A DNA stretch of 64,000 nt from Halobacterium jilantaiense. Lineage in GTDB: Archaea; Halobacteriota; Halobacteria; Halobacteriales; Halobacteriaceae. A program made the position numbers and the translations under genes. Within the stretch, counting starts at the first letter, position 1. Each line of letters starts with the position of its first letter. The stretch is from positions 2,515,393 to 2,579,392 of the forward strand of contig NZ_FOJA01000001.1 in assembly GCF_900110535.1 (NCBI RefSeq), in the 5' to 3' direction. Shown here one piece after another: positions 20,743 through 37,045 of the stretch. A model generated the notes under the pieces. That model made no database searches. It saw only the letters and a program-made list of their open reading frames with translations, and was not told where the DNA came from.

Positions 20743-21336
20743 ATGGAGTTCGACGGCGAGTTCGAACTCGAGGACGTGCCGCCGGACCAGGCGTGGGTAG
20801 TACTCTCGGACCCCATCGCGGTCCGGGACGCGCTGAAGGGCTGTCAGTACATCACGCCGATGGACGACGACTTCGAGTGGGATTCCTACGAGCCGGTCGA
20901 GGACGTCGAGACGCTCCCGGAGGCCGACCCCGAGGTCGTCGCGGGCCGCGCGTTCAAGGAGGGCGTGACCTACGCCGCGCTGATGCAGGTCGGCGTCGGC
21001 AGCGTGAAGCCGAAGTTCGAGACGTCGGTGTCCATCGACGAGCGCGACGGCGAGAACTTCGAGATGGTCGCCACCGGTTCCGGGTCGGCCAGCGGCAGCA
21101 GCTTCAGCATGGAGTCCGGGATGATCATCCACCCGAGCGAGGACGGAGAGGGCTCCCGCATCGAGTGGTGGACTGACGCGGACGTCTCTGGCCGCATCGC
21201 GCAGCTCGGCGGCCGCGTCATCAACCCGGTCGCGAACAAGATTGTGAACAACTTCTTCACCGCCATCGAGTCCGAGATGAGCGACGTCGAGGAGACCGAA
21301 TCCGGCGTTACGGACCGAATCCGGGGGATGTTCTGA
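20743..21336 (+). CDS. coxG: CoxG-type protein (SRPBCC fold), CODH operon
   Basis: This 197-residue SRPBCC/CoxG protein begins MEFDGEFELEDVPPDQAWVVLSDPIAVRDALKGCQYI and has the cavity-fold signature through FETSVSIDERDGENFEMVATGSGSASG. Bacterial CoxG is linked to CO dehydrogenase at the membrane and has been reported to handle quinone. Here there is no C-terminal membrane helix; the chain ends EETESGVTDRIRGMF. It is the first gene of the cox operon and its stop overlaps the coxM start (TGATG). Confidence 0.85.
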   Translation: MEFDGEFELEDVPPDQAWVVLSDPIAVRDALKGCQYITPMDDDFEWDSYEPVEDVETLPEADPEVVAGRAFKEGVTYAALMQVGVGSVKPKFETSVSIDERDGENFEMVATGSGSASGSSFSMESGMIIHPSEDGEGSRIEWWTDADVSGRIAQLGGRVINPVANKIVNNFFTAIESEMSDVEETESGVTDRIRGMF

Positions 21337-22223
21337 TGAAGTCGGCACCGTTCGAACACCACGAACCGTCGACGGTCGAGGAGACGGTCAGCCTCCTCGA
21401 GAGCCTGGACGAACCGACGATTCTCGCCGGCGGGCAGAGCCTCGTGCCGATGCTGCGGTTCCGGCTCGCGAACCCGGACGTCGTCGTCGACATCAACGGC
21501 GTCGACGACCTCGACTACTTCCACGAGGACGACGGCTACCTGAAACTCGGCGCGCTCGCTCGACACGCCGATGTCGAGGACTCGGACCTCGTCGCCGAGA
21601 AGTACGGGAGCTTCGCGGACGCGGCACCGCTGATTGCGGACCCCCAGATTCGAAACCGCGGCACCGTCGTCGGCTCTGTCGCGCAGGCCGACCCGAAAGG
21701 CGACTGGGGCTCGATTCTGCTCGCCCACGACGGCGACGTGGTCGCCCACGGGCCGGACGGCGAGCGCGTGATTCCAGCGGACGAGTTCTTCCTGCTGCCG
21801 TACGACACGACGCTCGGCGACGAGGAACTCATCACGGAAGTCAGAGTACCGACCCCGCAGCCCAGCGAGGGGAGCGCGTACCACAAGCTCAAGCGGAAGA
21901 CCGGCGACTACGCGATGGCCGGCGTCGCGGCGCGCCTGCTTCTCGACGACGACGGCCGCGTCGACACGGCGAGACTCGGCATGACGGCCGTCGACATCAC
22001 GAACGCGCGCGCGACGGACGCCGAAGCCCACGTCGAGGGCGAGCGGCCGACCGCGGAGCTGTTCGAGGAGGCGGGCGAGCTGGCGGCCGAGGAGTCGAAT
22101 CCGGAGTCGGACGAACACGGCGACGCGAGCTACAAGGAGCGGATGGTCGACGTGCTCGCCCAGCGCGCGCTGGGTGACGCCGCGGAGCGCGCCGGCCTCG
22201 TCAAACGGAGGGTTTCACAGTGA
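21336..22223 (+). CDS. coxM: CO dehydrogenase medium (FAD) subunit
   Basis: This 295-residue flavoprotein has the CoxM FAD motifs: [18 protein letters not shown] (about residues 29-46) and [19 protein letters not shown] (about residues 107-125). It passes electrons from the 2Fe-2S clusters of CoxS to the acceptor. The conserved C-terminal CO-dehydrogenase flavoprotein domain ends [15 protein letters not shown]. Its stop overlaps coxS by four bases, giving the M-S-L order of true CODH operons. Confidence 0.95.
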
Positions 22224-22840
22224 GCGACGAACGCGAAATCACGCTGACAGTCAACGGCACCGAACACACCGTCGAGGTCGAGCCGCGACGCCTGCTCGTC
22301 CACACCATCCGGGAGGACCTGGACATGACGGGCACGCACATCGGCTGCGACACGGGCAACTGCGGGGCCTGCACGGTACTGAAAGACGGCGAACCGATCA
22401 AGTCCTGTCTGATGTTCGCGGCGCAGGCCGACGGTGCCGAACTGATGACCGTCGAGGGGATGGAGGACCTCCCGGAAGCGACGGACCTCCACCCGCTCCA
22501 GGAGGGCTTCAGGGAGGAGCACGGCCTGCAGTGTGGCTACTGCACGCCCGGGATGCTCATGTCCGGGAAGGCGCTGCTGGACGAGAACCCGGACCCCGAG
22601 GAAGAAGAGATTCGCGAGGCCATCAGCGGCAACCTCTGTCGCTGCACGGGCTACCAGAACATCGTCAGCTCCATCGAGTACGCGGCCGACGAACTCGCGG
22701 ACCGCGCGGCGACCGACGGCGGCGCAGTCACGGCCGCCACCGACGACGCGGACGCGGCCTGCGGAGCGTCGGGCTGTGGCTGTGGCCAGTCGGCGGACCT
22801 GTTCGAGCGAGAGTACCCCACGGAGGACACCGACCGATGA
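22220..22840 (+). CDS. coxS: CO dehydrogenase small (2Fe-2S) subunit with a cysteine-rich tail
   Basis: This 206-residue subunit binds two 2Fe-2S clusters. The N-terminal plant-type set is C43, C48, C51 and C63 ([16 protein letters not shown]). The second is C105, C108, C140 and C142 (CGYCTPGM and [12 protein letters not shown]). CoxS is usually about 160 residues; this one has an extra tail with C181, C186 and C188 ([10 protein letters not shown]). The start is GTG at 22220, overlapping coxM by four bases. Confidence 0.96.
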
Positions 22841-25335
22841 GCAGCGAACACGAGAACACACCAGACGCCGACACGGAGTATCAACACGCCGAAGACGACG
22901 GCCCGCAGCCCGAGAAGCACTGCGGGCACGGCCGCGGTGGGATGGGCGAAGAGGTCAGCCGGAAGGAGGACAAGCGCTTCATCACCGGCCGCGGGAACTA
23001 CGTCGACGACATCAAGAAGCCGGGCATGCTGCACTGCGAAATCGTCCGCAGCCCGCACGCTCACGCCCGCGTGAAGGACATCGACGGGTCCCGGGCCGAG
23101 GCGATGGACGACGTCGTCGCGGTACTCACCGCCGAGGACCTGCTGGAACACGACCTGGCGACGATGCCGACGCTGATGGACGACACGCAGGACGTCCTCG
23201 TCAACGATAAGGTCAAGTTCCAGTCTCAGGAGGTCGCGGCGGTCATCGCGAAAGACCGGTACGCGGCGAAAGACGGCGCAGAGCGGGTCGAAGTCGACTA
23301 CGAGGTACTCGACCCGGTCGTGGACGCCGCGGACGCCCTCGAGGAGGACGCGCCGCTCATCCGGGACGAACTGGACGACCAGGAGGACAACCACATCTTC
23401 GACTGGGAGACCGGCGACCGGGAAGCCACCGAGGCGGTCTTCGACGACGCCGCGGTCACAATCGAGGAGGACATGGAGTACCAGCGGCTCCACCCCGCGC
23501 CGATTGAGACGTGTGGCGCGGTCGCGGACTGGGACCCCGGGATGGACAAGATGACGGTCCACATGACCTCGCAGGCACCCCACGCCCACCGGACCCTGTT
23601 CTCGCAGGTGTCGGGCATCCCCGAGCACAAGGTCCGAATCGTCAGCCCCGACGTGGGCGGCGGCTTCGGGAACAAGGTCCCCATCTATCCGGGCTACGTC
23701 GTCGCCGCGGCGGCGTCGTACGTCTTAGAGGAGCCCGTGAAGTGGGTCGAGGAGCGCTCGGAGAACATCCAGACGACGGGGTTCGCCCGCGACTACGACA
23801 TGACCGGCGAGCTCGCCGCCACCGAGGACGGCGAGATTACGGGCGTGAAAGTCGACGTGCTGGCGAACCACGGCGCGTACAACGCGGCCGCCCAGCCGTC
23901 GAAGTTCCCGGCGGGGTTCTTCAACATCTTCACCGGGTCCTACGACATCGAGGCGGCCTACGGGTCGCTGACGGCGGCGTTCACGAACACGGCACCGGGC
24001 GGCGTCGCGTACCGGTGTTCGTTCCGCGTGACGGAGGCCGTCTACCTCATCGAGCGGCTGGTGAAGGTGCTGGCGGACGAACTCGACGTCGACCCCGCCG
24101 AGATTCGGCGGAAGAACTTCATCCCGTCGGAGGCCTTCCCGTACGAGTCCGCGACGGGCTGGAACTACGACTCCGGGGACTACGAGAAGGCCCTGGACAA
24201 GGCCCTGGAGATGGCCGACTACGACCACTACCGGGAGGAACAGCAGCGCCGCATCGAGGAGGACGCGGACAAGCTGCTGGGCATCGGCATCTCGTCGTTC
24301 ACGGAGGTCGTGGGCGCGGGGCCGGGCAAGCAGTGTGACATCGCCGGCATCGAGATGTTCGACTCCGCGGACCTGCGCGTGAACCCGACCGGCAACGCCG
24401 TCCTGCGAGTAGGCGTCCAGACGCAGGGGCAGGGCCACGAGACGACGTTCGCCCAGATTGTCGCCGAGGAGCTCGGGATGGACGTGGACAGCATCACCGT
24501 CGAGCACGGCGACACCGACACCGAACCCTACGGGCTGGGGACGTACGGCTCGCGGTCCACGCCGGTCGCGGGCGCTGCGGCCGCCGTCGCCGCCCGGAAG
24601 GTCCGGGACAAGGCCAAATCCATCGCCGCGAACGAGCTGGAGGCCGCCGAGGAGGACATCGAGTGGGACCGCGAGTCCGGCGAGTTCCACGTCGCGGGCG
24701 CGCCCGACCGCTCCATCACCATCACCGAAATCGCGGCCGGCGCGTACATGAACCACCCCGACAGCGAGGAGCCGGGACTGGAGGCGACGAACTACTACGA
24801 CCCGCCGGAGATGACCTACCCGTTCGGCTCCTACATCGTGGTCGTGGAGGTCGACCGGGAGACCGGCGAGGTCGACTTCGAGAAGTTCGTCGCAGTCGAC
24901 GACTGCGGGAACCGCATCAACCCGATGATCATCGAGGGCCAGATTCACGGCGGGCTCGCGCAGGGCATCGGCACCGCGATGATGGAGGAGGTCACCTACG
25001 ACGACAACGGCAACGTCACCGGCGGTGACTTCATGAACTACCTGCTGCCGACCGCCAACGAGATTCCGAACTTCGAGACGGGGCACACGGTGACGCCGTC
25101 CCCGCATCACCCCATCGGTGCGAAGGGCGTCGGCGAATCCCCAACAGTCGGGTCGCCGCCCGCCATCGTGAACGCGGTGACGGACGCGATGACGCACGCG
25201 GGCGTCTCCCACGTGGAGATGCCGATGACGCCGGACGTCGTCTGGGAGCACCTCGACGAGGTCGGGCTGGCCCAGAAGCCGGGCCAGAACGTGGAGTTCG
25301 AACTGGACGAGGCCGGGGGACCGGCCGACGATTGA
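22837..25335 (+). CDS. coxL: CO dehydrogenase large (Mo/Cu) subunit, form I
   Basis: This 832-residue molybdenum hydroxylase subunit oxidises CO with water to CO2. The sequence VAYRCSFR contains Cys394, the position that binds copper in the CuSMo site of form I CoxL; form II enzymes differ here. Glu767 in [10 protein letters not shown] is the expected catalytic glutamate. The first 50 residues include [20 protein letters not shown], as in other CoxL proteins. The ATG at 22837 overlaps the coxS stop. A long open reading opposite to it is not a gene. Confidence 0.97.
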
Positions 25336-25447: not shown

Positions 25448-26554
25448 ATGACGGGCGAGGAGCCACCGCGGAGGGCCGACACCGGCGTGGACGTGTCGGC
25501 GGTGGAGGCCGACCTCGCCGCGCGCGACCAGCCGTACGCGCGAGCGACCGTCGTGCGCCGCGAGCCGCCGGTGTCCGCGAACGTCGGCGACCGCGCCGTC
25601 GTCACCTCTGACGGCGACCTGCACGGCTGGGTCGGCGGCGCGGCGTGCGCCCAGTCAATCGTCACACGAGAGGCGAAACGCACCATCGAGTCCGGCGAGG
25701 CGCGGCTCGTCGGCATCGCGCCGGACCCGGAGACGGTCGCGCGGTCGGGGCTGGACGCGTACCCGATGCGGTGCCACAGCGAGGGCGTCCTGGAGGTGTT
25801 CCTCGAACCGGTCGCGCCGACCACGAACCTCGTCGTCGTCGGGGACTCACCGGTCGCGCAGTCGCTGGCTCGGCTCGCGAGCGAACTCGATGTCGACGTG
25901 ACGCTCGTCGTCGACGACGCCGACGCGGCCCGCGACGTTCCCGAGGCGACGGCGATTCTGGGGACGGTCGACCCGTCCGAGGTGGCCGACGCCGTCGGCG
26001 ACGCGCCACTGGTCGTGGCCGCGTCGATGGGGCAGTACGACGCTCGCGGCGTCGCAGCCGGCGTGCTGGCGGACGCGCCCTACGTCGGGCTGGTCGCGAG
26101 CGACGAGCGCGCGGCCGAGGACACGGAGCGCGCGTCCGACCTCGCGGGCGTCGACGTGGAGGCCGTCCGGGCAGCGGTGACGAACCCGGCGGGCGTCGAC
26201 ATCGCCGCGTACGCGCCGGCGGAGATTGCGGCGAGCCTGCTGGCGGAAGTCGTCGACGTGACGTCGCGGACGCCGTCGGACGTCGCCGCCGCGCAGGCCG
26301 GCACCGAGACGGAGGAGTCCGCCGACGCCGCGACCGGCGACGACAGCGGCGACGAGTCGGACGGCGACGAGCCGACCGACGCCCCGGCGTCCGCGGTCGA
26401 CCCGGTCTGCGGGATGACGGTCGAGGACACCGGAGACGCACCCTCGGTCGAGCACGACGGCGAGACGTACTACTTCTGCTGTCACGGCTGCGCGGACTCG
26501 TTCCGCGACGAGCCCGACTCGTACCTCGGCGACGACCCGGAGGTGGAGGCGTGA
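25448..26554 (+). CDS. XdhC/CoxI-type maturation protein fused to a YHS metal-binding domain
   Basis: This 368-residue protein has an XdhC/CoxI-like part (N-terminal WVGGAACAQSIVTREAK, then a Rossmann-like region NLVVVGDSPVAQSLARLA) that in relatives inserts sulfido groups into molybdenum cofactor enzymes. An Asp/Thr-rich linker (about residues 283-318) leads to a C-terminal YHS/TRASH-like domain with C321 (DPVCGM), C344, C345, H346 and C348 (YFCCHGC). That domain could bring copper to the CoxL site. It lies 112 bases after coxL, and its stop overlaps coxD. Confidence 0.82.
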   Translation: MTGEEPPRRADTGVDVSAVEADLAARDQPYARATVVRREPPVSANVGDRAVVTSDGDLHGWVGGAACAQSIVTREAKRTIESGEARLVGIAPDPETVARSGLDAYPMRCHSEGVLEVFLEPVAPTTNLVVVGDSPVAQSLARLASELDVDVTLVVDDADAARDVPEATAILGTVDPSEVADAVGDAPLVVAASMGQYDARGVAAGVLADAPYVGLVASDERAAEDTERASDLAGVDVEAVRAAVTNPAGVDIAAYAPAEIAASLLAEVVDVTSRTPSDVAAAQAGTETEESADAATGDDSGDESDGDEPTDAPASAVDPVCGMTVEDTGDAPSVEHDGETYYFCCHGCADSFRDEPDSYLGDDPEVEA

Positions 26555-27537
26555 GCGACGACGAGCCGGCGTTCGCGTCGCTGACCGAGTCCGGCCTCCG
26601 CGAGCGCTTCGAGGCCGACGACTACATCGCGGACGACACGACGGTGACGACGGTGTCGCTCGCGCTCCGGCTCGGCCGGCCCCTGCTCGTCGAGGGGCCG
26701 CCGGGCAGCGGGAAGACCGAACTCGGGAAGACGCTCGCGCGGAGCTTCGACACGGAGCTCATCCGCCTCCAGTGCTACGAGGGGCTGACGGCGGAGAACG
26801 CGCTCTACGAGTGGAACTACACGAAGCAGCTGCTCGCGGTGCAGGCCGACGAGCGCGGCGTCGCCGACGGCGCGCCCGGCGGCGAGACCGAGGAGCCGTC
26901 GGCGTCCGCGGAGGCTCCGAGCGCGCCGTCGGTGTTCGACGACGAGTTCCTGCTCGAACGCCCGCTGCTCCGCGCGCTCCGCGCCGAGGGCGACTACCCG
27001 CCGGTGTTGCTCGTCGACGAGATCGACCGGGCGGACGAGGCCTTCGAGGCGTTCCTCCTCGAACTGCTGTCGGACTTCCAGGTGTCGATTCCCGAACTCG
27101 GCACCGTGCGCGCCGACCAGCCGCCGGTGGTCGTGCTCACGTCGAACCAGACGCGCGGGCTCAGCGACGCGCTCAAACGCCGGTGTCTCTACCTGCACGT
27201 GGAGCCACCGGACTTCGAGACGGAGTACCAGATTGTCCGCCGGAAAGTGCCAGAACTCGACGCTGCGGTCGCCACCGAGGTGTGCGCGGTCGTCGGGCGG
27301 CTGCGCGAGGAGTCGTTCCTCAAGCAGCCCGGGGTGGCAGAGACCCTCGACTGGGCGCGCGCGGTCGCCGCGCTCCGGCTCGACGACGACCCCGGGTCGC
27401 TGGCGGCCGCGGACATCGAGCGCACCATCGGCTGCCTGCTGAAGGAAGCCACCGACGTCACGAACGTCGACACCGACCTCCTCGAACAGCTCGAAGCCGC
27501 GGCCGCGGCGGCCGACGAGCGACCCGCAGACGACTGA
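26551..27537 (+). CDS. coxD: MoxR-type AAA+ ATPase, CoxD
   Basis: This 328-residue AAA+ protein has Walker A GPPGSGKT at residues 49-56, Walker B VLLVDEIDRAD, and sensor VVLTSNQTRGL followed by LKRRCLYLHVE. CoxD helps build the CuSMoO2 centre of CODH. The GTG at 26551 was chosen because it overlaps the preceding stop in GTGA and starts the conserved part. Between residues 108 and 128 there is an Ala/Glu-rich insert. CoxE follows after a 2-base gap. Confidence 0.9.
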   Translation: MSDDEPAFASLTESGLRERFEADDYIADDTTVTTVSLALRLGRPLLVEGPPGSGKTELGKTLARSFDTELIRLQCYEGLTAENALYEWNYTKQLLAVQADERGVADGAPGGETEEPSASAEAPSAPSVFDDEFLLERPLLRALRAEGDYPPVLLVDEIDRADEAFEAFLLELLSDFQVSIPELGTVRADQPPVVVLTSNQTRGLSDALKRRCLYLHVEPPDFETEYQIVRRKVPELDAAVATEVCAVVGRLREESFLKQPGVAETLDWARAVAALRLDDDPGSLAAADIERTIGCLLKEATDVTNVDTDLLEQLEAAAAAADERPADD

Positions 27538-27539
27538 CG

Positions 27540-28895
27540 ATGGCGGGAGACCGGGAGGACACGCCGGACGGAGCCGGACTGGACCACGTGGGGATGGAGG
27601 GCGTCCCCGACTTCGAGGCGGCCCGCGAGCACGTGCTCGTGGAACTCGTCCGGCTGGTCGCGACCCTCCGCGGGGACGGCGTCACCGTCCCGGCCACCGG
27701 CCTTCTAGATGCGGCGCGCGCGCTGTCCGTCGTCGGCCTCGGCGACGAGCAGCAGGTCGCGGCGGCGCTCCGCGCGACGCTCGTCTCCGAGAGCGCGGAC
27801 CGCTCGGCGTTCGAGGACGCGTTCCCGGAGTTCTGGCACCGGCTCCGGAGCGGCCTCGACCGCATCGCGACCGCGCACGACGGCCCGTCGCCGGACGACG
27901 GGAGCGAGGACGACCGGGAGACGCCGGGCGACGCCGGCGACAGCGATGACCCGGACACGCTGTCGGACGGCGACCCGCCCGACCTCGACAGTGACGGGGA
28001 CGGCGGCGGTGACGTGGCGGTCCGGATTCCGACCGACCGCGCGCACGCCTCCGGCGACCGACCGACGGAGTCTGACGGGAGCGACGCGCGCCGGTACAGC
28101 GCGGCCGGCGGGAGCGAACTCGTCGACGAGGCGGTGCCGGCGGCCGACTCGACCGAGGTCGCGGCCGTCGAGCGGTTCGTGGACGCGCTCGCGACGCTCC
28201 CGGGCCGCCGCACCCGCCGCGCCACGGACGGCCCGAGGCTGGACGCCCGCGCCGCCCTGCGAGCGAGCCTCGAGACGGGCGGCGCGCCCCTCGACGTTCC
28301 CCGCGAGGACCACGAACTGAGCGAACTGCGGTGTTGCCTGCTCGTGGACGTCAGCGGGTCCGTACTGGACACCGTCGACCGCGGCGCGCTGCTGGCGCTC
28401 GTCGACCGGTTCGCGTCGACGGCGCTGGACGCCCGCGTGTTCTTCTTCGACACCGAGGTCGCCGAGGTAACGGAGACGGTGTCCCGCGCACAGGGGTCGA
28501 CGGCCGCGGCGCTGCGCGCGGCGGCCGTCGAGTGGGGCGGCGGCACGAAAATCGGGGCAGCCTTCGACCGGGTCCGCCGGGAGGCTCCCCACGCCGTCGA
28601 CCACCGCACCGTCGTGGTCGTCGTGAGCGACGGGCTGGACGTCGGCGACCCGGACCTCCTCACCGACGGCATCACGTGGCTCGCCGACCGCGCGGGCGGC
28701 GTCGTCTGGCTGAATCCGCTCGCCGTCTCCCGCGAGTTCGAGCCGTCGGCCCGCGGCATGGCGACCGTCGAACCGTATCTGGACGCCCTGTTCGGGTTCG
28801 CGACGGCGGCGGACCTCGCGGGGGCGGCCCGGCAGCTCGAACGCCGCGGCCTCGACGGCCCGGTGGGCTACGAGTTCGACGCGCGTCCGTCGTGA
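27540..28895 (+). CDS. coxE: VWA domain protein, CoxE
   Basis: This 451-residue VWA protein contains the MIDAS motif DVSGS in RCCLLVDVSGSVLDT, about residues 262-276, with later VVVVSDGLDV. An Asp-rich linker (about residues 115-165) separates the helical N-terminus from the VWA domain. CoxE works with the MoxR partner CoxD in CODH maturation. The ATG at 27540 follows the coxD stop by two bases. It is the last gene of the cox operon and converges on cbiZ. Confidence 0.9.
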   Translation: MAGDREDTPDGAGLDHVGMEGVPDFEAAREHVLVELVRLVATLRGDGVTVPATGLLDAARALSVVGLGDEQQVAAALRATLVSESADRSAFEDAFPEFWHRLRSGLDRIATAHDGPSPDDGSEDDRETPGDAGDSDDPDTLSDGDPPDLDSDGDGGGDVAVRIPTDRAHASGDRPTESDGSDARRYSAAGGSELVDEAVPAADSTEVAAVERFVDALATLPGRRTRRATDGPRLDARAALRASLETGGAPLDVPREDHELSELRCCLLVDVSGSVLDTVDRGALLALVDRFASTALDARVFFFDTEVAEVTETVSRAQGSTAAALRAAAVEWGGGTKIGAAFDRVRREAPHAVDHRTVVVVVSDGLDVGDPDLLTDGITWLADRAGGVVWLNPLAVSREFEPSARGMATVEPYLDALFGFATAADLAGAARQLERRGLDGPVGYEFDARPS

Positions 28896-28907
28896 CCTGC
28901 CCCGCGG

Positions 28908-29615
28908 TCACTCGCTCGGCGAGACGACGTCTGCCCGGACGTCCGTGCTGACGCCGTGGCGGGCGTCGTCGACGGAGTCGGGCAGTTCCTCGTCCTCGTA
29001 GCGGCTGTCGAGGCTCGCGCGGACGGCGTCCCGGACGCAGGCGCGGGCGGCAGCGCCGACGCGGGTCGCGCTCCCGGAGAACGCCGACGGCTCCCCCGCG
29101 GGGTCGCAGGCCGCGACGACGGCGTCGCTGGTCGTTCCGGGGAACCCCGCGGTGGCGAGCAGCGTGGCGGTCTTCGCCTCCGCCGCGACGGCGACGAGGT
29201 TCGCGAGCGCGGCGTCGTCGAGGCGGCGGGTCGTCCCGACGACGACGTTCACGGTGCCGGCGACGGGGTCGGGGTCGTTCGGGAGCGCGCCGCCGTCGGC
29301 GTCCATCGGGAGCGCGGCGGGGTTCGAGACGCCGACGGTCGCGGCGGCCGCGACCGGGCCACACCGCGCGAGGCGGGCGTGGCGCTGCGCGACGCCAGTG
29401 AGGAGGACCGGTGCGGCGTCGCGGGTCGGGAATCCCGCGTCGGCGAGGCGGTCAGCGACGTATTCGTCGATGCTGTCGGGCTGCCAGCCCTCGGGGACCG
29501 TGACGTTGTACGCGTGGTCCGCAACGCTGGTGCCGCCGTCCCAGCCGGTCGACAGCCAGCGCGTCTCGGGTCGTTCGAGGGCGAGTACGTCGTCCCGGAT
29601 CGTCGACTCAAACAT
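28908..29615 (-). CDS. cbiZ: Adenosylcobinamide amidohydrolase
   Basis: This 235-residue CbiZ begins MFESTIRDDVLALERPETRWLSTGWDGG and contains CbiZ features such as AYNVTVPEGW and VNVVVGTTRRLDDAALANLV. It opens the amide bond of adenosylcobinamide to adenosylcobyric acid, allowing salvage of incomplete corrinoids through CbiB. It is the last gene of the ten-gene cob operon, overlapping the cobD stop by 8 bases. The ATG at 29615 begins the conserved part. Confidence 0.92.
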   Translation of the reverse strand: MFESTIRDDVLALERPETRWLSTGWDGGTSVADHAYNVTVPEGWQPDSIDEYVADRLADAGFPTRDAAPVLLTGVAQRHARLARCGPVAAAATVGVSNPAALPMDADGGALPNDPDPVAGTVNVVVGTTRRLDDAALANLVAVAAEAKTATLLATAGFPGTTSDAVVAACDPAGEPSAFSGSATRVGAAARACVRDAVRASLDSRYEDEELPDSVDDARHGVSTDVRADVVSPSE

Positions 29616-30618
29616 CCCCGAGCACCGCCAGCAACTGGTCGTTCTCGTCGGGCGTGCGGACGGCGACGCGGACGTGGCTGTCGAGGCCGCGGAACGTCGT
29701 CGCGTCCCGCACGGCGACGCCGCGGTCCCGGGTCGCGGCCACGAGCGCGCCGACGTCCCGGTCGCCGACGTCCAGCAGGAGGAATGGCGCACGCGACTCG
29801 CGGACGGCGAACCGCTCAGAGAGCGCGTTCCGGAGGCGCTCGCGCTCGCTCGCGACCCGCTGGCGGGTCTCCGCGACGAACTCGGTCTGGCGCATCGCGT
29901 GCGCGCCGACGGCGGCGGCGGGCGTCCCGAGGTTCCAGGCGCGGCGGGCGGTCCGGAGGTCGGCGAGCCGGTCGCCGTCCGCGACGAGGAAGCCCGCCCG
30001 CAGCCCGGGGAGGCCGAACAGCTTGGTGAGCGAGCGCGCGACGACGACACCCTCCGTGCCCGCGAGCGAGGGGGCGTCGGTGAAGCCGAGGAACGCCTCG
30101 TCGACGAGCAGCTCGGTGTCGGCGGCCCGGCAGCGCGCCGCGAACTCGCGGAGGGCGTCGCGGTCGGATAGTCTCCCTGTGGGGTTGTTCGGGTTACAGA
30201 CGATTGCGGTCGCGTGGTCGCTCGGGTCGGCGTCCAGAATCTCGTCGTGAGGGACGAACTCGGGGGTCGCGCCCTGGAGCTCGACCTCGCGGGCGTACTC
30301 GCCGAAACTCGGGTAGGGAACGAGCACGCTGTCACCGGGTTCGACCCGCGTCTCGATGGCGAGCCGGAGCCCGGCGAGGCCGCCCGGCGTCTGGACGACG
30401 CGCTCGGGGTCCACGCCGACGTAGTCGCCCGCCGCCGCCCGGAACTCGGGGTAGCTGTCGTCGGGATAGCGCGCCGCGTCGTCGAGCGCATCCTCGTACA
30501 CTGCTCGGGTGCCGGGCGGCGTCCGGGGGTTGACGTTCGCGCTGAAGTCCAGCACGTCCGGGTCGTCGCTCCCGCCGTGGGGCACCCGGCTCGCGCCGCG
30601 AACGGCGTCAGGGTCCAT
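29608..30618 (-). CDS. cobD: L-threonine-O-3-phosphate decarboxylase
   Basis: This 336-residue PLP enzyme makes aminopropanol phosphate for the lower ligand arm. Lys199 in ARSLTKLFGLPGLRAG is the PLP-binding lysine, with FSANVNP at 25-31 and CNPNNPTG at 141-148 as aminotransferase class I motifs. Its end overlaps cbiZ by 8 bases and its start lies over the cobY stop region, as in the rest of the operon. Confidence 0.92.
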   Translation of the reverse strand: MDPDAVRGASRVPHGGSDDPDVLDFSANVNPRTPPGTRAVYEDALDDAARYPDDSYPEFRAAAGDYVGVDPERVVQTPGGLAGLRLAIETRVEPGDSVLVPYPSFGEYAREVELQGATPEFVPHDEILDADPSDHATAIVCNPNNPTGRLSDRDALREFAARCRAADTELLVDEAFLGFTDAPSLAGTEGVVVARSLTKLFGLPGLRAGFLVADGDRLADLRTARRAWNLGTPAAAVGAHAMRQTEFVAETRQRVASERERLRNALSERFAVRESRAPFLLLDVGDRDVGALVAATRDRGVAVRDATTFRGLDSHVRVAVRTPDENDQLLAVLGDV

Positions 30619-31198
30619 CGGCTCCCTCCACGGCCCCGCCGCAGTTCTCTCCTGCGGTCCCGGCGAGCAGTCGCTCCGCGAGCGCGGCGTCGCTCCGGCG
30701 GTTCACGTTCACGGCGAGCCGCGCGTCCCAGCTCCGCACCACCGAGTCCTCGTCGTCGGCGACGACGTTCACGCCGGTCGGCACCCAGGGGCCGTCGCTG
30801 TCGGTGCTCGCGCCGAGGGTGTCCTTCAGCGCGACCGGGACGCGAACGCTCGTGGAGCCGTCGGCGGCGTCGAGGACCGCGTCGACGGCGTCACCGTCTA
30901 CGAGCGGGAGGTCGGCGGCGACCGTGAGGACCGGCGTGCCGACCGCGTCGAGGGCCGCGCCGAGGTCCGCGACGTACCCCTCGCCCGGCGTCTCGACCAC
31001 GGGGAGGTCGCCGGTGACGTGCTCTCGGGTGTCGGGCGCGTGCGGCGAGACGACGGCGTACGCGGTGTCGACGCGGCTGTCGGCGAGCGCGTCACGCACC
31101 CGGTCGACCATCGGCCGTCCCGCCACCTCGAACAGCGGCTTCTCGGCGTCGCTGTCGAGGCGGGTGCCGCGGCCGCCACACATCAGGAGAGCGTCCAC
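30608..31198 (-). CDS. cobY: Archaeal GTP:adenosylcobinamide-phosphate guanylyltransferase
   Basis: This 196-residue archaeal CobY replaces bacterial CobU and activates adenosylcobinamide phosphate with GTP. The N-terminal VDALLMCGGRGTRLDSDAEKPL is the nucleotidyltransferase signature, with AEKPL as the conserved lysine region. A GTG start at 31198 gives the family N-terminus and overlaps the cobS stop by 16 bases; an ATG five codons later would cut into the motif. Confidence 0.92.
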   Translation of the reverse strand: MDALLMCGGRGTRLDSDAEKPLFEVAGRPMVDRVRDALADSRVDTAYAVVSPHAPDTREHVTGDLPVVETPGEGYVADLGAALDAVGTPVLTVAADLPLVDGDAVDAVLDAADGSTSVRVPVALKDTLGASTDSDGPWVPTGVNVVADDEDSVVRSWDARLAVNVNRRSDAALAERLLAGTAGENCGGAVEGADGP

Positions 31199-31938
31199 AC
31201 GACCACCCCCGCGTGGAGCCCGACGACGCGACCGACCTCGTTCACGGCACCGAAGACGTCGCCGTTCGCACCGCCGAGGAGGCCGGTGAGCCACCGGAGC
31301 GTGCCGACGCCGGCTGCGACCGCGCCTGCGAGCGCGCCGAACGCGGCGGGCGACGGCCACGACAGCAGGGCAGCGGGCAGTGCGACGGCCAGCGCGGGCG
31401 CGAGGTCCGTGCTCGCCGCGCGCCCGGTGAACTGCGCGCCGAGGCCGTCGTGTGGCGCGACGCCGAGGCAGGCGACGGCCGCCATCCCCGCTTTCGCGCC
31501 GACCTCCGCGGCGACGACGACGGCGAGCGCGACCCGGACGGGCAGTCCGGCCACGCCGAGCGCGCCGAGCCCGAGGCCCGCGACGACGAGCGCGACCGCA
31601 GCGACCGCGCCGACGCCGACCGTCGTGTCCTTCAGGACCTCGCGACGGTCGGCCCGGTCGCCGTGGACGACGGCGGCGTCCCCGGCGTCAGCGACGCCGT
31701 CGAGGTGGTTGATGCCGGTGACGGCGACGACCGCGAGCAGATAGGCGAGCGCGACAGTCGAGACCGGGAGCCCGGCAGTGCCGAACAGGAACGGGACCGA
31801 GAGGAGCGCGCCCACGACGTAGCCGGCGAGCGGGAACGCCCATGGGGACTCGCTGAACGCGCCCCACGCGGCGTCGGTGTGCCCGACCGGCAGCCGCGTG
31901 AGGAACACGAGCGCGCCGCGCAGCGCACTCAGGACCAC
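31183..31938 (-). CDS. cobS: Adenosylcobinamide-GDP ribazoletransferase
   Basis: This 251-residue membrane enzyme joins adenosyl-GDP-cobinamide to alpha-ribazole (phosphate). The family motif GINHLDGVADAGDA is at about residues 66-79. Five or more membrane segments are visible. A GTG at 31938 begins VVLSALRGALVFLTRLPVG, the usual N-terminus; upstream sequence lies inside cbiB, which it overlaps by 10 bases. Confidence 0.92.
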   Translation of the reverse strand: MVLSALRGALVFLTRLPVGHTDAAWGAFSESPWAFPLAGYVVGALLSVPFLFGTAGLPVSTVALAYLLAVVAVTGINHLDGVADAGDAAVVHGDRADRREVLKDTTVGVGAVAAVALVVAGLGLGALGVAGLPVRVALAVVVAAEVGAKAGMAAVACLGVAPHDGLGAQFTGRAASTDLAPALAVALPAALLSWPSPAAFGALAGAVAAGVGTLRWLTGLLGGANGDVFGAVNEVGRVVGLHAGVVVWTLS

Positions 31939-32858
31939 GCGACCACCCCCGAGCCGGCGGCGTAGGCGACCAGCCCGGTCAGCAGGTAGGCGAGCACGCC
32001 CGCGACGCCGACGTCGCGGACGCCACGCTGGCTCTCCGCCGCGGTCGGGAACTCCGCCCCGAGCGGCAGGTCGTAGACGCCCGGTTTGGCGAGCCGGCGG
32101 CCGAGGACGGCCGCGAGCGTCGCCATCGGCCACCCCGAGTTCGGGGACGGCGGCGCGGCGGCGTAGTCGCGAGCCCGGGCGAGCGCATCCGGGTCGCGCG
32201 CCGCCGCTGCGACCAGCAGGGCGCTCAGGCGCGCGGGCAGCCACATCACGGCGTCGTCGAGGCGCGCGCTCGGCGTGCCGACGCGCTTGCTGCGGTAGCC
32301 GAGCATGGAGTCGAGCGTGTTCACGGCCTTCACCCAGGCCGCCAGCCCCGCGGCGACGGGCAGCGAGACGAGTGCGCCCGCGGCGAACGCGAGCAGCGGC
32401 GCGACGAGCCCGTCGGCGAGGTTCTCCGCCGCGCTCTCGACGGCCGCGCTCCGGAGTTCGCCGGCCGAGAGGTCGGTCGAGTCGCGGCCCGCCAGCGACC
32501 GCAGGCGCTCGCGCGCCCCAGCGGGGTCGTCGCCCGTCGCGGCGACGACGGCCCGCGCCTCACCGAGCAGCATCCGGAGGCTCGTCGCCGAGAACAGCGC
32601 GAGCCCCGCCACAGCCCCCGCAGCCAGTTCTCCCGCCTCCGCTGCGACCGCCACCAGCCCGGCGACCGCGCCGGCCGCCGCCAGCGGGAGGGCGACGGCG
32701 ACGAGCGCGCCGACCGCGAGCGGGCGCGTCCACTCGCGGTCGAACGGGGCGATAGCCCGCCCGAGCCACGCGACTGGGTGGAGTCGGGTCGGCGGCTCCG
32801 CGACCGCGGCTTCGAGCGCGAACGCCACCGCGACCGCGCCGGCGGCCGCCGCGCTCAC
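31929..32858 (-). CDS. cbiB: Adenosylcobinamide-phosphate synthase
   Basis: This 309-residue membrane protein attaches aminopropanol phosphate to adenosylcobyric acid. CbiB motifs are RLHPVAWLGRAIA (about residues 25-37), KAVNTLDSMLGYRS and PNSGWPMATLAAVL. The start is GTG at 32858, overlapping the HAD gene's stop by four bases (GTGA). It sits between the HAD hydrolase and cobS in the operon. Confidence 0.93.
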   Translation of the reverse strand: MSAAAAGAVAVAFALEAAVAEPPTRLHPVAWLGRAIAPFDREWTRPLAVGALVAVALPLAAAGAVAGLVAVAAEAGELAAGAVAGLALFSATSLRMLLGEARAVVAATGDDPAGARERLRSLAGRDSTDLSAGELRSAAVESAAENLADGLVAPLLAFAAGALVSLPVAAGLAAWVKAVNTLDSMLGYRSKRVGTPSARLDDAVMWLPARLSALLVAAAARDPDALARARDYAAAPPSPNSGWPMATLAAVLGRRLAKPGVYDLPLGAEFPTAAESQRGVRDVGVAGVLAYLLTGLVAYAAGSGVVAWS

Positions 32859-33475
32859 GCGAATCCCTCCAGTTCACCGGGGACCTCGCGCAGGTCCGTC
32901 TCGGTCAGCAGTATCGCGTGCCCGCCGACGGCTTCGACGCCGCCGTCCGCCTCCGGGTCGTCGCCGACGTGAACGAGGTCCTCGGGGTCGGTGTCGAGCG
33001 CCCCGGCGACGGCCCGGAACGCCCGCTCGTCGGGCTTCCGCCAGCCGCAGTCGACGCTCACCACGACGGCGTCGAACTCGCCGGCGAGGTCGGCTCCGGT
33101 GAGCGCTCGCTCCACGAGGCCGGGGACGCTGCAGTTCGACAGCACGGCGACCGGGCCGCGCTCCCGGGCCGCTTCGACGGCCGCGAGCGCGCCCTCGCGG
33201 CGCTGGACCGGGCGGTCGAACGCCTCGACAGTCGCCTCACGAACCGTCTCCGCGTCGGCGTCGACGCCGCGGCTCGCGAGCGCGGCCGCGACGTGGTCTG
33301 GGAGCGGGTACTCGGCTCCCCGCGCCACTTCGGCGTGTGGCTCCCGGTAGGCGGCAGTCCAGTCCTCGGGCACGCGCACGCCCCGGTCGGCGAGCGCGTC
33401 CGCGACCGCCGACGCCGGCTCCTCGGGGCGCTGCGCGTCCACGAGCGTCCCGAAGCAGTCGAACGAGGTCGTCAC
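32855..33475 (-). CDS. HAD-family phosphatase in the cobalamin operon
   Basis: This 206-residue HAD hydrolase has a full catalytic set: nucleophile motif SFDCFGTLVD near residue 4, motif II LSNCS, motif III lysine in GWRKPDERAF and motif IV VGDDPEAD. The GTG at 33475 (VTTSFDCF) was chosen because a CAAGT-NN-ACTTG dyad and a TATA-like stretch lie just upstream; an ATG at 33523 gives a 16-residue extension. Its place between cbiP and cbiB suggests a phosphatase step of cobalamin synthesis, such as removal of the 5'-phosphate of alpha-ribazole; that is inference. Confidence 0.8.
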   Translation of the reverse strand: MTTSFDCFGTLVDAQRPEEPASAVADALADRGVRVPEDWTAAYREPHAEVARGAEYPLPDHVAAALASRGVDADAETVREATVEAFDRPVQRREGALAAVEAARERGPVAVLSNCSVPGLVERALTGADLAGEFDAVVVSVDCGWRKPDERAFRAVAGALDTDPEDLVHVGDDPEADGGVEAVGGHAILLTETDLREVPGELEGFA

Positions 33476-33486
33476 TACGCGTTGCT

Positions 33487-33505
33487 TACTGCAAGTAGAC
33501 TTGAA
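33487..33505 (-). promoter_or_regulatory. Candidate cobalamin-regulon dyad before the HAD gene
   Basis: Read on the minus strand, the core CAAGT-CT-ACTTG is a perfect 5-bp palindrome around two bases. It aligns without gaps to the dyads before cobN and cbiT. It lies 11 bases before the chosen GTG, implying an internal promoter in the cob operon. Confidence 0.5.
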
Positions 33506-33526
33506 TCGGTCGGTCGCGGCCATCGG

Positions 33527-35080
33527 TCACCCCGGGAGGCCGAGCGCGGCGAGGTCGACGTGTTCGCGGACGAGAGCGGCGGCCGCGTCGTACGGCGACC
33601 CGGGGTCGACGCCGGCCGCCGGTCGGCCGCGGTTCGCGTGTGCGAAGACGGCGTCCACGAACCCCTCGCGGGCGGCGTCGTTCTCGAAGAGCCCGTGGAG
33701 GTACGTGCCGAGGACGCGGTCGACCGCCGCGCTCGTCGGCCCCACGGGGTTCGGGAGGTCGTCGGGGACGCGGGTGCGGCCCGCGTGAATCTCGTAGCCC
33801 GAGACGCCGCCAGTCGCGTCGCCCAGCGCCTCGCAGGCGTCCAGTGTCCGGGAGACAGCTTCGACGCGCTTGTCGGCGCGGAAGTCGGACTCGACAGGCA
33901 GCAGACCGACGCCCTCGACGGTCTCGACGTCGCCGGTGGATTCGCGGTCGGCGTTCGTGATGCGCTCGCCGAGCAGCTGGTAGCCGCCGCAGAGCCCGAC
34001 GACCGGGCCGTCGAACGCGCGGAGTTCGTCGCCGAACCCGGCCGCTCGGAGCTCCCGGAGGTCGTCGACGGTGTTCTTCGTGCCCGGGAGCACGACGGCG
34101 TCAGCGCCGGCGAGCGAGCCGTCCGGCGGGACGTAGCTGACTCGGACGCCCGGCGTGCGAGCGAGCGGTTCGAGGTCGGTGGCGTTCGAGATGCGCGACA
34201 GCCGGGGGACGGCGACCGTGACGGACCGGGCGTCCGGTACGCCGTCGTCGGTGCCCCGGGTCGCTTCGGTCTCGCCGTCCGGCAGGGAGACGGAGTCCTC
34301 CTCGGGGAGCCCCGGGTCGTCGTAGGGGAGCACGCCCAGAATCGGGACGCCGGTGCGCTCCTCGATTTCGGCGATGCCCGGCTCCAGGAGGCCCGGGTCG
34401 CCCCGGAACTTCGTGACGACGGCCCCGGCGACCCGGTCGCGCACGTCCCCGGGGAGCAGTTCGAGCGTGCCGTAGAGGCTCGCGAACGCGCCGCCGCGCT
34501 CGATGTCCACGACGAGCAGGATTGCCGCGTCTGCGAACCGCGCCACCTCCAGATTCGCCAAATCGCGGTCCTGGAGGTTTATCTCGGCGATGCTGCCCGC
34601 GCCCTCCGCCACCACGACATCGTTGGCGTCGGCGAGGCGCTCGTGGGCGGCGACGGCGGTTTCGCGGGCGTCGGCCCAGTGTTCGTCGTAGTAGTCGCCG
34701 GCGGCGTAGTGGCCGACGGCCTGCCCGTCGAGGACGACCTGGCTCTCGGCGTCCCCCCGGGGTTTGAGGAGGACCGGGTTGTGGTCGGTCGACGCCGGCG
34801 TCCTCGCCGCCCGGGCCTGAACGTACTGGGAGACGCCGATTTCGCCCCAGGCGGCGTCGCGGTCCGCGCCCGCGGCGACCGGGACGGCGCGAGCGTTGTT
34901 GCTCATGTTCTGGGCTTTGAACGGCGCGACGGCGACGCCGCGGTCGGCGAGGTGCCGGCAGAGCCCGGCCGCCACCGTGCTCTTCCCGACGTGGGACGCC
35001 GTCCCGGCGACGAGGACGGTTCGGCAGTCCGCCGCTCGCTCCTCCTCGCGGTCGCTGCCGTCCGCGCCGTCGGTCGTCAT
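33527..35080 (-). CDS. cbiP: Cobyric acid synthase
   Basis: This 517-residue amidotransferase makes adenosylcobyric acid by four amidations. The N-terminal GTASHVGKS (residues 26-34) and [13 protein letters not shown] bind ATP and substrate. The C-terminal glutaminase domain has nucleophile Cys364 in [10 protein letters not shown] and later GYEIHAGRT with the partner histidine. It starts one base after the cobA stop, in the minus-strand operon. Confidence 0.95.
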
Positions 35081-35081
35081 C

Positions 35082-35750
35082 TCAGAACTCGGTGCCCTTC
35101 CGGGCGCTGTGGCCGTTCTCGATGGGGTGGCGCTGCTTGCGCACCTCGGTCACGAGGTCCGCCTCGTCGAGGAGGTAGGTCGGCTCCTCGTGGCTCCCGG
35201 TGAGCACGAGTTCGAGGCCGTCGGGCTTGTCCCGGATCAGGTCCAGCACGTCCTCCAGGTCGACGAGCCCGCGGCCCGCCGCGTACAGAATCTCGTCCAG
35301 AATCAGCATGTGGACGCCGTCCTCGGGGTCGCCGTCGAGCGGAAGCGACCCGTCGACGCCCCTGGACGCGTCGACGATTTCTCGGGCGCGGGCGAGGCCG
35401 CCCTGTGCGCGGGCCTCGTGTTCGTCGTCGTCGCTGCCGTCGTGGAAGCCGTGCCAGCCGTAGTGCCCGGAGTTCTCGTAGCTCGCGCCCGGCAGCGCCT
35501 CGAGGGCAGCGTACTCGCCGCGCACGTCCTCGACGGTGCTCGTCCCGCCTTTCATGAACTGGAGGAGGTGGACGCGGTAGCCGTGGCCGGCCGCCCGCAG
35601 CCCCATCCCGAGGGCGGCCGTCGTCTTCCCCTTGCCGTCGCCCCACCACGCCTGCACGAGCCCGAACTCCTCGGGCTCGCCGGGCGCAATCTCGGTCGGT
35701 CGGAGCGGGTCGTCGGTGCCGTGCTCGTCGTCGGTGGTGTCGTCGGTCAT
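35082..35750 (-). CDS. cobA: Cob(I)yrinic acid a,c-diamide adenosyltransferase, CobA type
   Basis: This 222-residue P-loop corrinoid adenosyltransferase has [15 protein letters not shown] at residues 35-49, with GDGKGKTT as the inverted P-loop of CobA/BtuR/Cob[12 protein letters not shown] and VLTGSHEEP are further family motifs. It adds the 5'-deoxyadenosyl group to reduced corrinoid. The ATG at 35750 overlaps the cbiA stop by four bases. A second, unrelated adenosyltransferase (pduO) lies at 61066. Confidence 0.95.
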
Positions 35751-37045
35751 AGTGAATCGAGGAAGCGGTCGAAGGCGCTGCTCTCGGCGTGGACGTGCGC
35801 GTACGTGCCGAGGGTGTCGTACTCTGTGAGGCCGTCCCGGTCGCCCGTGATGCCGTCGCCGCGCTCGACGTCGAACGCGAACCGGGCGTCGCCGGCCACG
35901 TCGCCCTCGGAGTAGTGGAACTCGTGGCCGCGCAGCCGGTCACCCGCACTCGCCGTGAGCGTGTCCCCGCGCGCCCGGAGTTTCACGTGGTCGAGGGCCT
36001 GGTAGCGCTCGCGCATCGTCACGTCCGCGGGCAGCACGCCCGCCATCGCGTGCGAGTCGCCGTCCGTCGTCGTCAGTGACTCCGCGAGCGCCATCAGGCC
36101 GCCGCACTCGCCGAGAACGGGGAGACCGTCCGCGGCCCGGTCGGCGAGCGCGTCGAGCGCGGGCGAGTCCGCGAGCGCGTCGGCGTGCAACTCGGGGTAG
36201 CCGCCGGGGAGGTAGACGCCGTCGCAGTCGGGGAGGTCGTCGCCCGCGACGGGCGAGAACGGCACCACGTCGGCGCGCGCCCGGAGGCGCTGCCGGGTCG
36301 CTGGGTACTCGAAGCAGAACGCCGCGTCGTCGGCGACCGCCACCCGGTTCTCGGTGGCCGGGCCGGGCGCTGCGGGCTCCGGCCGGGGCGGCTCCCGGGC
36401 CAGATCGACGAGCCGCTCGGCGTCGACGTGCTCGGCGGCCGCGTCCAGTGCGTCGGGGTCGACCGGCGCTTCGTCGCCCATCCGGAGGCCGAGATGGCGC
36501 TCGGGGATTTCGAGGGCGTCGACGGGCGGAATCCGGCCGAGGTAGTCGACGCCGTCCGGGAGCGCGTCCCGGATGCCGGCTTCGTGGCGGCCGCCGTGGG
36601 CGCGCTGGGCGAGCACGCCGACCACGTCCACGTTGACGCCGGCTTCGGCGGCGTATTCCCGGAAGCCGAGGGCCGTCGCGCCGACGCTCTGCATCCCGGC
36701 GCTGGCGTCCGCGACCAGCACGACCGGGAGGTCGAGGACTTCGGCCACACCCGCCGTACTCGCCACGGAGCCGTCGTAGAGCCCCATCATCCCCTCGACG
36801 ACGCAGACGTCGCCCTCGCCCCGGTAGTAGGTCCGGCGCGTTCCGGCTTCGCCCGCGAGCCACGGGTCGAGCGAGCGCGAGGGTTTCTCCGCGACCGCCT
36901 CGTGGTGGCTCGGGTCGATGAAGTCCGGGCCGGCCTTCGCCGGCTGGGGGTCGTAGCCGGCGTCGTCGAGCGCGCGCAGGACCGCGAGCGTCGCCACGGT
37001 CTTCCCGACGCCCGAGGCGGTCCCGCCGAGGACGAACCCTCTCAC
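35747..37045 (-). CDS. cbiA: Cobyrinic acid a,c-diamide synthase
   Basis: This 432-residue ATP-dependent amidotransferase amidates the a and c side chains. The P-loop-like [13 protein letters not shown] is near residue 6 and [14 protein letters not shown] follows. The glutaminase domain has Cys in [13 protein letters not shown] and a late [17 protein letters not shown] start at 37045 gives the expected N-terminus and overlaps the cobT stop by four bases. Confidence 0.93.

Follow-up and report, generated by a model that had tools for sequence, protein, structure and literature searches.

The gene on the forward strand at positions 25448-26554 of the window, by which we mean the whole 64,000-nucleotide stretch of Halobacterium jilantaiense DNA analyzed here, encodes a CoxF-type protein in which the XdhC/CoxI-family portion is fused to a C-terminal YHS/TRASH domain. 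We favor the view, at a probability of roughly 0.58, that it is the CoxF copper-insertion factor of form I (CuSMo) CODH equipped with its own tethered copper-holding module. The fusion accompanies form I CODH in both archaea and bacteria, spanning five phyla, and many of these organisms probably use YHS-bearing CoxF to load copper into their CODH.

Domain composition, operon context and CoxF orthology

A preliminary description of this DNA had proposed that an XdhC/CoxI-like domain is joined to a YHS/TRASH-like domain within a form I cox operon, and both assignments were confirmed. The 368-aa open reading frame begins with ATG, ends with TGA, and yields four Pfam matches. PF02625 (XdhC_CoxI) scored 44.2 bits against a cut-off of 24.3 and covers residues 24-88 (25517-25711), while PF13478 (XdhC_C) scored 67.2 bits against 29.7 and corresponds to a Rossmann domain at residues 128-268 (25829-26251) with fold matches to 2we8 and 2we7. 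The YHS/TRASH domain occupies residues 317-361 (26396-26530) and was matched by PF04945 (YHS, 49.0 bits against 30.3, E 5.8e-13) and by the overlapping PF24273 (TRASH_HVO_1752_C, 30.8 bits against 27). Since each of these scores exceeds its curated cut-off, the domain matches are not attributable to chance. A Pfam scan to E 0.01 returned no match to the HMA domain of the Atx1/CopZ chaperones.

The surrounding genes are all encoded on the same strand in the order coxG-coxM-coxS-coxL-coxF-coxD-coxE, with the YHS fusion in the coxF position. Upstream lie coxG (20743-21336; PF06240), coxM (21336-22223; PF00941 and PF03450), coxS (22220-22840; PF01799 and PF00111) and coxL (22840-25335), which encodes the copper-containing target subunit. 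CoxL is of form I, as it scored 1209 bits against the TIGR02416 cut-off of 991 and contains the motif AYRCSFR. Downstream, the stop codon of the fusion gene overlaps the start of coxD within the tetranucleotide GTGA; the coxD-like gene (26551-27537) encodes a MoxR AAA ATPase, identified by Pfam and by its Walker A motif GPPGSGKT, and is followed by a coxE-like gene (27540-28895, ATG at 27540) for a VWA protein with PF05762 and a DxSxS motif (DVSGS). The region beyond coxE (28895-36000) contains cobalamin-type genes, whereas some 25 of the other form I loci of haloarchaea have a second XdhC gene, of CoxI type, after coxE. Outside of the window, the H. jilantaiense genome also contains a coxL-type gene of form II (C1:1767062-1769365), with neither XdhC nor YHS encoded within 8 kb of it.

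When 113 XdhC domains were placed in a maximum-likelihood tree, they resolved into two sides, with an SH-aLRT value of 100 on the split between them. One side (62 rows) contains all of the fusions in the tree together with the CoxF proteins of Oligotropha, Rhizobium and Marivivens, while the other contains Oligotropha CoxI along with the XdhC proteins of form II operons and the second XdhC encoded by form I operons of haloarchaea. The window protein falls within the clade of Oligotropha CoxF and is therefore a CoxF orthologue; a CoxI identity was rejected, as Oligotropha CoxI is located in the opposite clade. A previous review likened CoxF to the XdhC proteins of other CODH operons and CoxI to PaoD (PMC2997495). 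In Oligotropha, coxE and coxF mutants produce CODH without copper, and sulfuration has been assigned to CoxD (PMC4240915). Because the tree groups the protein with CoxF and the mutants place CoxF in the copper step, the label of "CODH sulfur-insertion factor" that it had been given is probably wrong, although the XdhC part has been suggested to help retain sulfur on the molybdenum. Nor does a single protein need to carry both activities, as had been supposed, given that the copper step belongs to CoxF and CoxE and the sulfuration step to CoxD.

The fusion among form I and form II loci

Copper is what distinguishes form I (CuSMo) from form II CODH, while sulfur on the molybdenum is a general need of this enzyme family. 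The form I (Cu-Mo) enzyme and its copper-free form II counterpart both occur in haloarchaea, which thus provide a natural control. CoxL was detected above the family cut-off in 31 of 392 haloarchaeal genomes, and all 31 of these intact form I proteins contain AYRCSFR, while 27 of the 28 haloarchaeal form II loci retrieved encode either AYRGAGR or PYRGAGR. The XdhC-YHS fusion was present in 30/31 form I loci versus 0/28 form II loci, and an XdhC lacking YHS is encoded in 12 of the latter; the Fisher values for this comparison are extreme but nominal only, as haloarchaeal genomes are related and hence not independent. When these 392 genomes were searched with the whole protein, CoxF-type matches fell in 32 of them, precisely those that have a form I coxL, and the remaining 360 gave no match to the whole fusion protein. 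The 32nd genome (G161) has a decayed form I cox operon (L087), in which coxL is spread across three frames and CoxF and YHS are encoded in separate frames. In the haloarchaeon G059 (L060 6710-8020), CoxF lacks the YHS domain and retains a long acidic tail, and the accompanying CoxL still contains AYRCSFR; this locus is a natural deletion test of the domain. A contig scan recovered only Halobacterium bonnevillei and one unrelated actinobacterial YHS protein. The deposited genome of a close relative, Halobacterium sp. PCN9 (L024/G005), encodes the same fusion and this strain oxidizes CO (PMC6548880); the architecture is thus present in a working CO oxidizer.

The fusion is not confined to haloarchaea. 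Form I coxL was found in 55 of 396 Actinomycetota genomes, and all 55 also yielded a CoxF match. From these, 40 form I loci were retrieved, of which 33 encode the fusion, three encode CoxF without YHS (L130, L131 and L141), two leave the contig inside CoxF, and two lack a neighboring XdhC gene; thus, the fusion is present in 33 of 36 assessable loci. Thirteen further actinobacterial genomes had a match, and in nine of them a truncated coxL adjoins it. The other four consist of one match at a contig end, two XdhC proteins without YHS, and a 135-aa XdhC-YHS fragment with no coxL within 9 kb (G613; L209 2642-3046), which is the sole unexplained match. For Chloroflexota, Deinococcota and Pseudomonadota the sample comprised plasmid records only, and the fusion is encoded in the form I operons on plasmids from Thermomicrobium roseum, Deinococcus sp. 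AJ005, Paraburkholderia aromaticivorans and Caballeronia. On plasmid p380k of Deinococcus sp. AJ005, a TIGR02466 gene is inserted between coxG and coxF. The alphaproteobacterial form I operons (Afipia, Rhizobium and Marivivens) encode CoxF without YHS. Outside of the Alphaproteobacteria, CoxF is commonly of the fused type in the loci sampled, and the occurrence of the fusion in 30/31 haloarchaeal and 33/36 actinobacterial form I operons as well as in other bacteria does not bear out the earlier supposition that such an arrangement is unusual.

CoxF proteins without YHS accompany form I enzymes in Oligotropha and other Alphaproteobacteria, in three actinobacterial loci, Nonomuraea, and the haloarchaeon G059. 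In the tree these sequences are dispersed among the fused ones, a pattern which suggests that YHS was lost several times from a fused ancestor. Short Cys/His-rich tails were observed on two YHS-less CoxF proteins, encoded at L141 10200-11143 (G773) and L130 10075-11064 (G717) (SASGGGCCGHGSG; DQHCAAHGH), and these are possibly minimal substitute metal sites. That the fusion goes with form I could stem in part from the operon having been inherited as a unit.

Presumed metal ligands and predicted structure

Of the only six cysteines in the window protein, C67 and C109 lie in the XdhC part and C321, C344, C345 and C348 in the YHS part. Across 42 aligned fusions, the invariant residues were D318, P319, C321, F343, C344 and C348 in the YHS part and C67, C109, S111 and G113 in the XdhC part; the ligand columns of all copies were counted from an HMM alignment. 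The presumed ligands are accordingly D318 (26399-26401), C321 (26408-26410), C344 (26477-26479) and C348 (26489-26491), whose spacing follows the D/C-x2-C-xn-C-x3-C pattern of YHS/TRASH domains. All four are present in 31/31 haloarchaeal and 33/33 actinobacterial domains. The four other bacterial copies have N, N, D and S at position 318, and the Deinococcus domain has lost C321 and C344; where DPVCGM and FCC..C would be expected, this degenerate YHS (Deinococcus sp. AJ005, L118 6947-8008) reads SPVDGE and FTCANC. C345 (26480-26482) appears auxiliary to these ligands. Position 345 is Cys in 28/31 haloarchaeal, 15/33 actinobacterial and 4/4 other bacterial copies, amounting to 47/68 CODH-linked domains versus 2/41 other YHS domains, which mostly have Ser. 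The preliminary description had listed C321, C344, C345, H346 and C348 as the relevant residues, and all of these are indeed present; it had omitted the invariant D318, and H346 was rejected as a ligand because this position is not conserved, being His in 12/31 haloarchaeal copies and 0/37 bacterial copies.

Within the XdhC part, the C109-x-S111-x-G113 motif (25772-25786) aligns with the position of MCPSHGTM, the published putative copper motif of Oligotropha CoxF, and C109 is found in 62/62 rows of the CoxF clade. We dropped the idea that C109 is unique to CoxF, as a separate Cys occurs nearby in the other XdhC clade, in a region where the alignment is unreliable. The full MCPSHGTM motif occurs in 1/72 CoxF sequences and was rejected as a general CoxF feature, as was the published phytase motif RHGxR, which is also found in 1/72 sequences and only in Oligotropha; a route based on the phytase motif is therefore unlikely to be the general route for copper. 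RGD is present in 7/72 CoxF sequences.

The AlphaFold2 model of the window protein has an overall pLDDT of 87.7, and the acidic stretch between the XdhC and YHS parts, at approximately residues 276-310 (26273-26377), is predicted to be disordered, with pLDDT values mostly <50. The length of this linker ranges from 12 to 81 aa across homologues, and the YHS domain folded alone has a pLDDT of 85. With this disordered stretch before it, the domain looks tethered rather than packed. In a fold search, the XdhC part matched M. smegmatis 2we8, and the full-length model returned only XdhC structures and general Rossmann folds. A profile search with YHS returned phenol hydroxylase phN and ribosomal L24e, while phN, toluene monooxygenase and L24e topped the fold search with YHS alone, at modest scores. 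The identity of the bound metal is not deducible from the fold.

These structural relatives also provide an argument for viewing the YHS domain as a zinc-type or metal-free structural element that docks CoxF to CoxL, CoxE or CoxD, with its cysteines simply holding the fold. Neither of its best solved relatives by sequence and fold, phN and L24e, is a copper carrier, and YHS/TRASH folds elsewhere contain Cd, as in the L24e crystal, or no metal at all, as in toluene-4-hydroxylase (PMC4626032). We nevertheless consider a structural dock to be unlikely, since a four-ligand structural site would have no use for the Cys that is mostly found at position 345, the domain is restricted to a copper enzyme, and in the model the domain follows a long disordered linker and appears unpacked.

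Copper supply to CODH and related systems

The YHS domain tracks form I only, and it is copper, not the sulfur on molybdenum, that separates the two forms; therefore, copper handling is the best reading of the domain. The earlier characterization of this YHS as copper-type stands to the extent that copper now appears to be its likeliest metal role. By analogy, binding of copper by the CODH-linked domains would also be expected from the Mycobacterium phlei adenylyl cyclase, whose YHS ligands are D178, C181, C204 and C208 and which Cu2+ activates, whereas Zn, Fe, Cr, Co and Ni do not (PMC4626032). As CoxF is already tied to copper insertion by the Oligotropha mutants, we favor an arm that supplies copper. 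In this mechanism, the XdhC part would dock on the molybdenum center of apo-CoxL or keep it sulfurated, with CoxD (sulfuration) and CoxE (the CoxF partner) presumably acting as they do in Oligotropha. The YHS domain, on its disordered linker, would hold a single copper ion through C321, C344 and C348 together with D318, assisted by C345 where it is present, and would then hand the ion on, perhaps by way of C109 in the XdhC part, to the Mo-SH/Cys site of CoxL. We infer delivery rather than sensing of copper, as well as its oxidation state and the relay path through C109. Some form I operons, including that of Oligotropha, encode a CoxF without YHS, which argues that the domain is helpful but not indispensable.

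The same cyclase could be read in another way, as the only YHS domain with direct data is one that turns its enzyme on with copper (PMC4626032). If the CoxF domain were likewise a copper sensor, it would switch CoxF such that Mo-cofactor handling or CODH maturation awaits the metal. Sensor and supplier roles are difficult to tell apart from sequence, but we regard a sensor as rather improbable, given that CoxF is itself implicated in copper supply (PMC4240915) and that a sensor would not need the Cys at position 345. Least plausible of all is that the YHS cysteines carry persulfide sulfur for the CuSMo mu-sulfide or protect it, because even though XdhC proteins are tied to sulfurated Moco and a CC pair could bear a persulfide (PMC4240915), sulfurated molybdenum is needed family-wide and yet form II loci have XdhC without YHS, sulfuration is assigned to CoxD, and C345 is missing from about one third of the copies.

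The route by which copper reaches the Mo-S-Cu site of aerobic CODH has been studied in one organism, whose CoxF is without YHS. The copper-supplying arm favored here places a candidate copper site with defined ligands beside most of the sampled form I enzymes, which renders the question of copper loading testable; YHS may also serve as a sequence marker for copper-loading CoxF, and YHS-CoxF could aid the heterologous production of active CODH. More tentatively, and leaning if anything slightly against it, we can envision the YHS copper arm as an ancestral and general Cu-donor module of form I CODH maturation, conserved across haloarchaea, Actinomycetota, Thermomicrobia, Deinococcota and Burkholderiales but repeatedly lost, such that Oligotropha CoxF would be a derived exception and its phytase/MCPSHGTM route would not be the one that loads CuSMo in most organisms. 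A literature search, confined largely to papers available without subscription, returned no description of YHS together with coxF or the XdhC family, and we provisionally regard the fusion as previously undescribed.

Among known systems, the CoxF of Oligotropha (Afipia) carboxidovorans OM5 shares with the window protein the XdhC_CoxI and XdhC_C domains, a form I operon with coxD and coxE, the same tree clade and the C-x-S-x-G motif, and the published role in copper insertion is that of the Oligotropha protein. It differs in its lack of YHS and in its phytase-like RHGxR and MCPSHGTM motifs, which are found in no fused protein. The CoxI/PaoD-type XdhC chaperones belong to the same Pfam families and bind or handle Moco, but they form a separate clade, never occur with YHS in the loci examined, and accompany both form I and form II enzymes. 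The YHS domain of the M. phlei cyclase has the identical D-x2-C-x22-C-x3-C spacing and is likewise C-terminal on its host enzyme, whereas that host is a cyclase, the proposed role is that of a sensor, and it is the CODH-linked domains that mostly have a Cys after the second ligand Cys. The YHS domains of copper P-type ATPases and haloarchaeal permeases share family and ligands, but mostly have Ser at the position of C345 and reside on other host proteins. CCS, the copper chaperone of SOD1, also combines a target-recognition part with a copper-binding part. The resemblance is one of analogy only, as CCS has unrelated folds and a different target, and the HMA domain is absent from the window protein.
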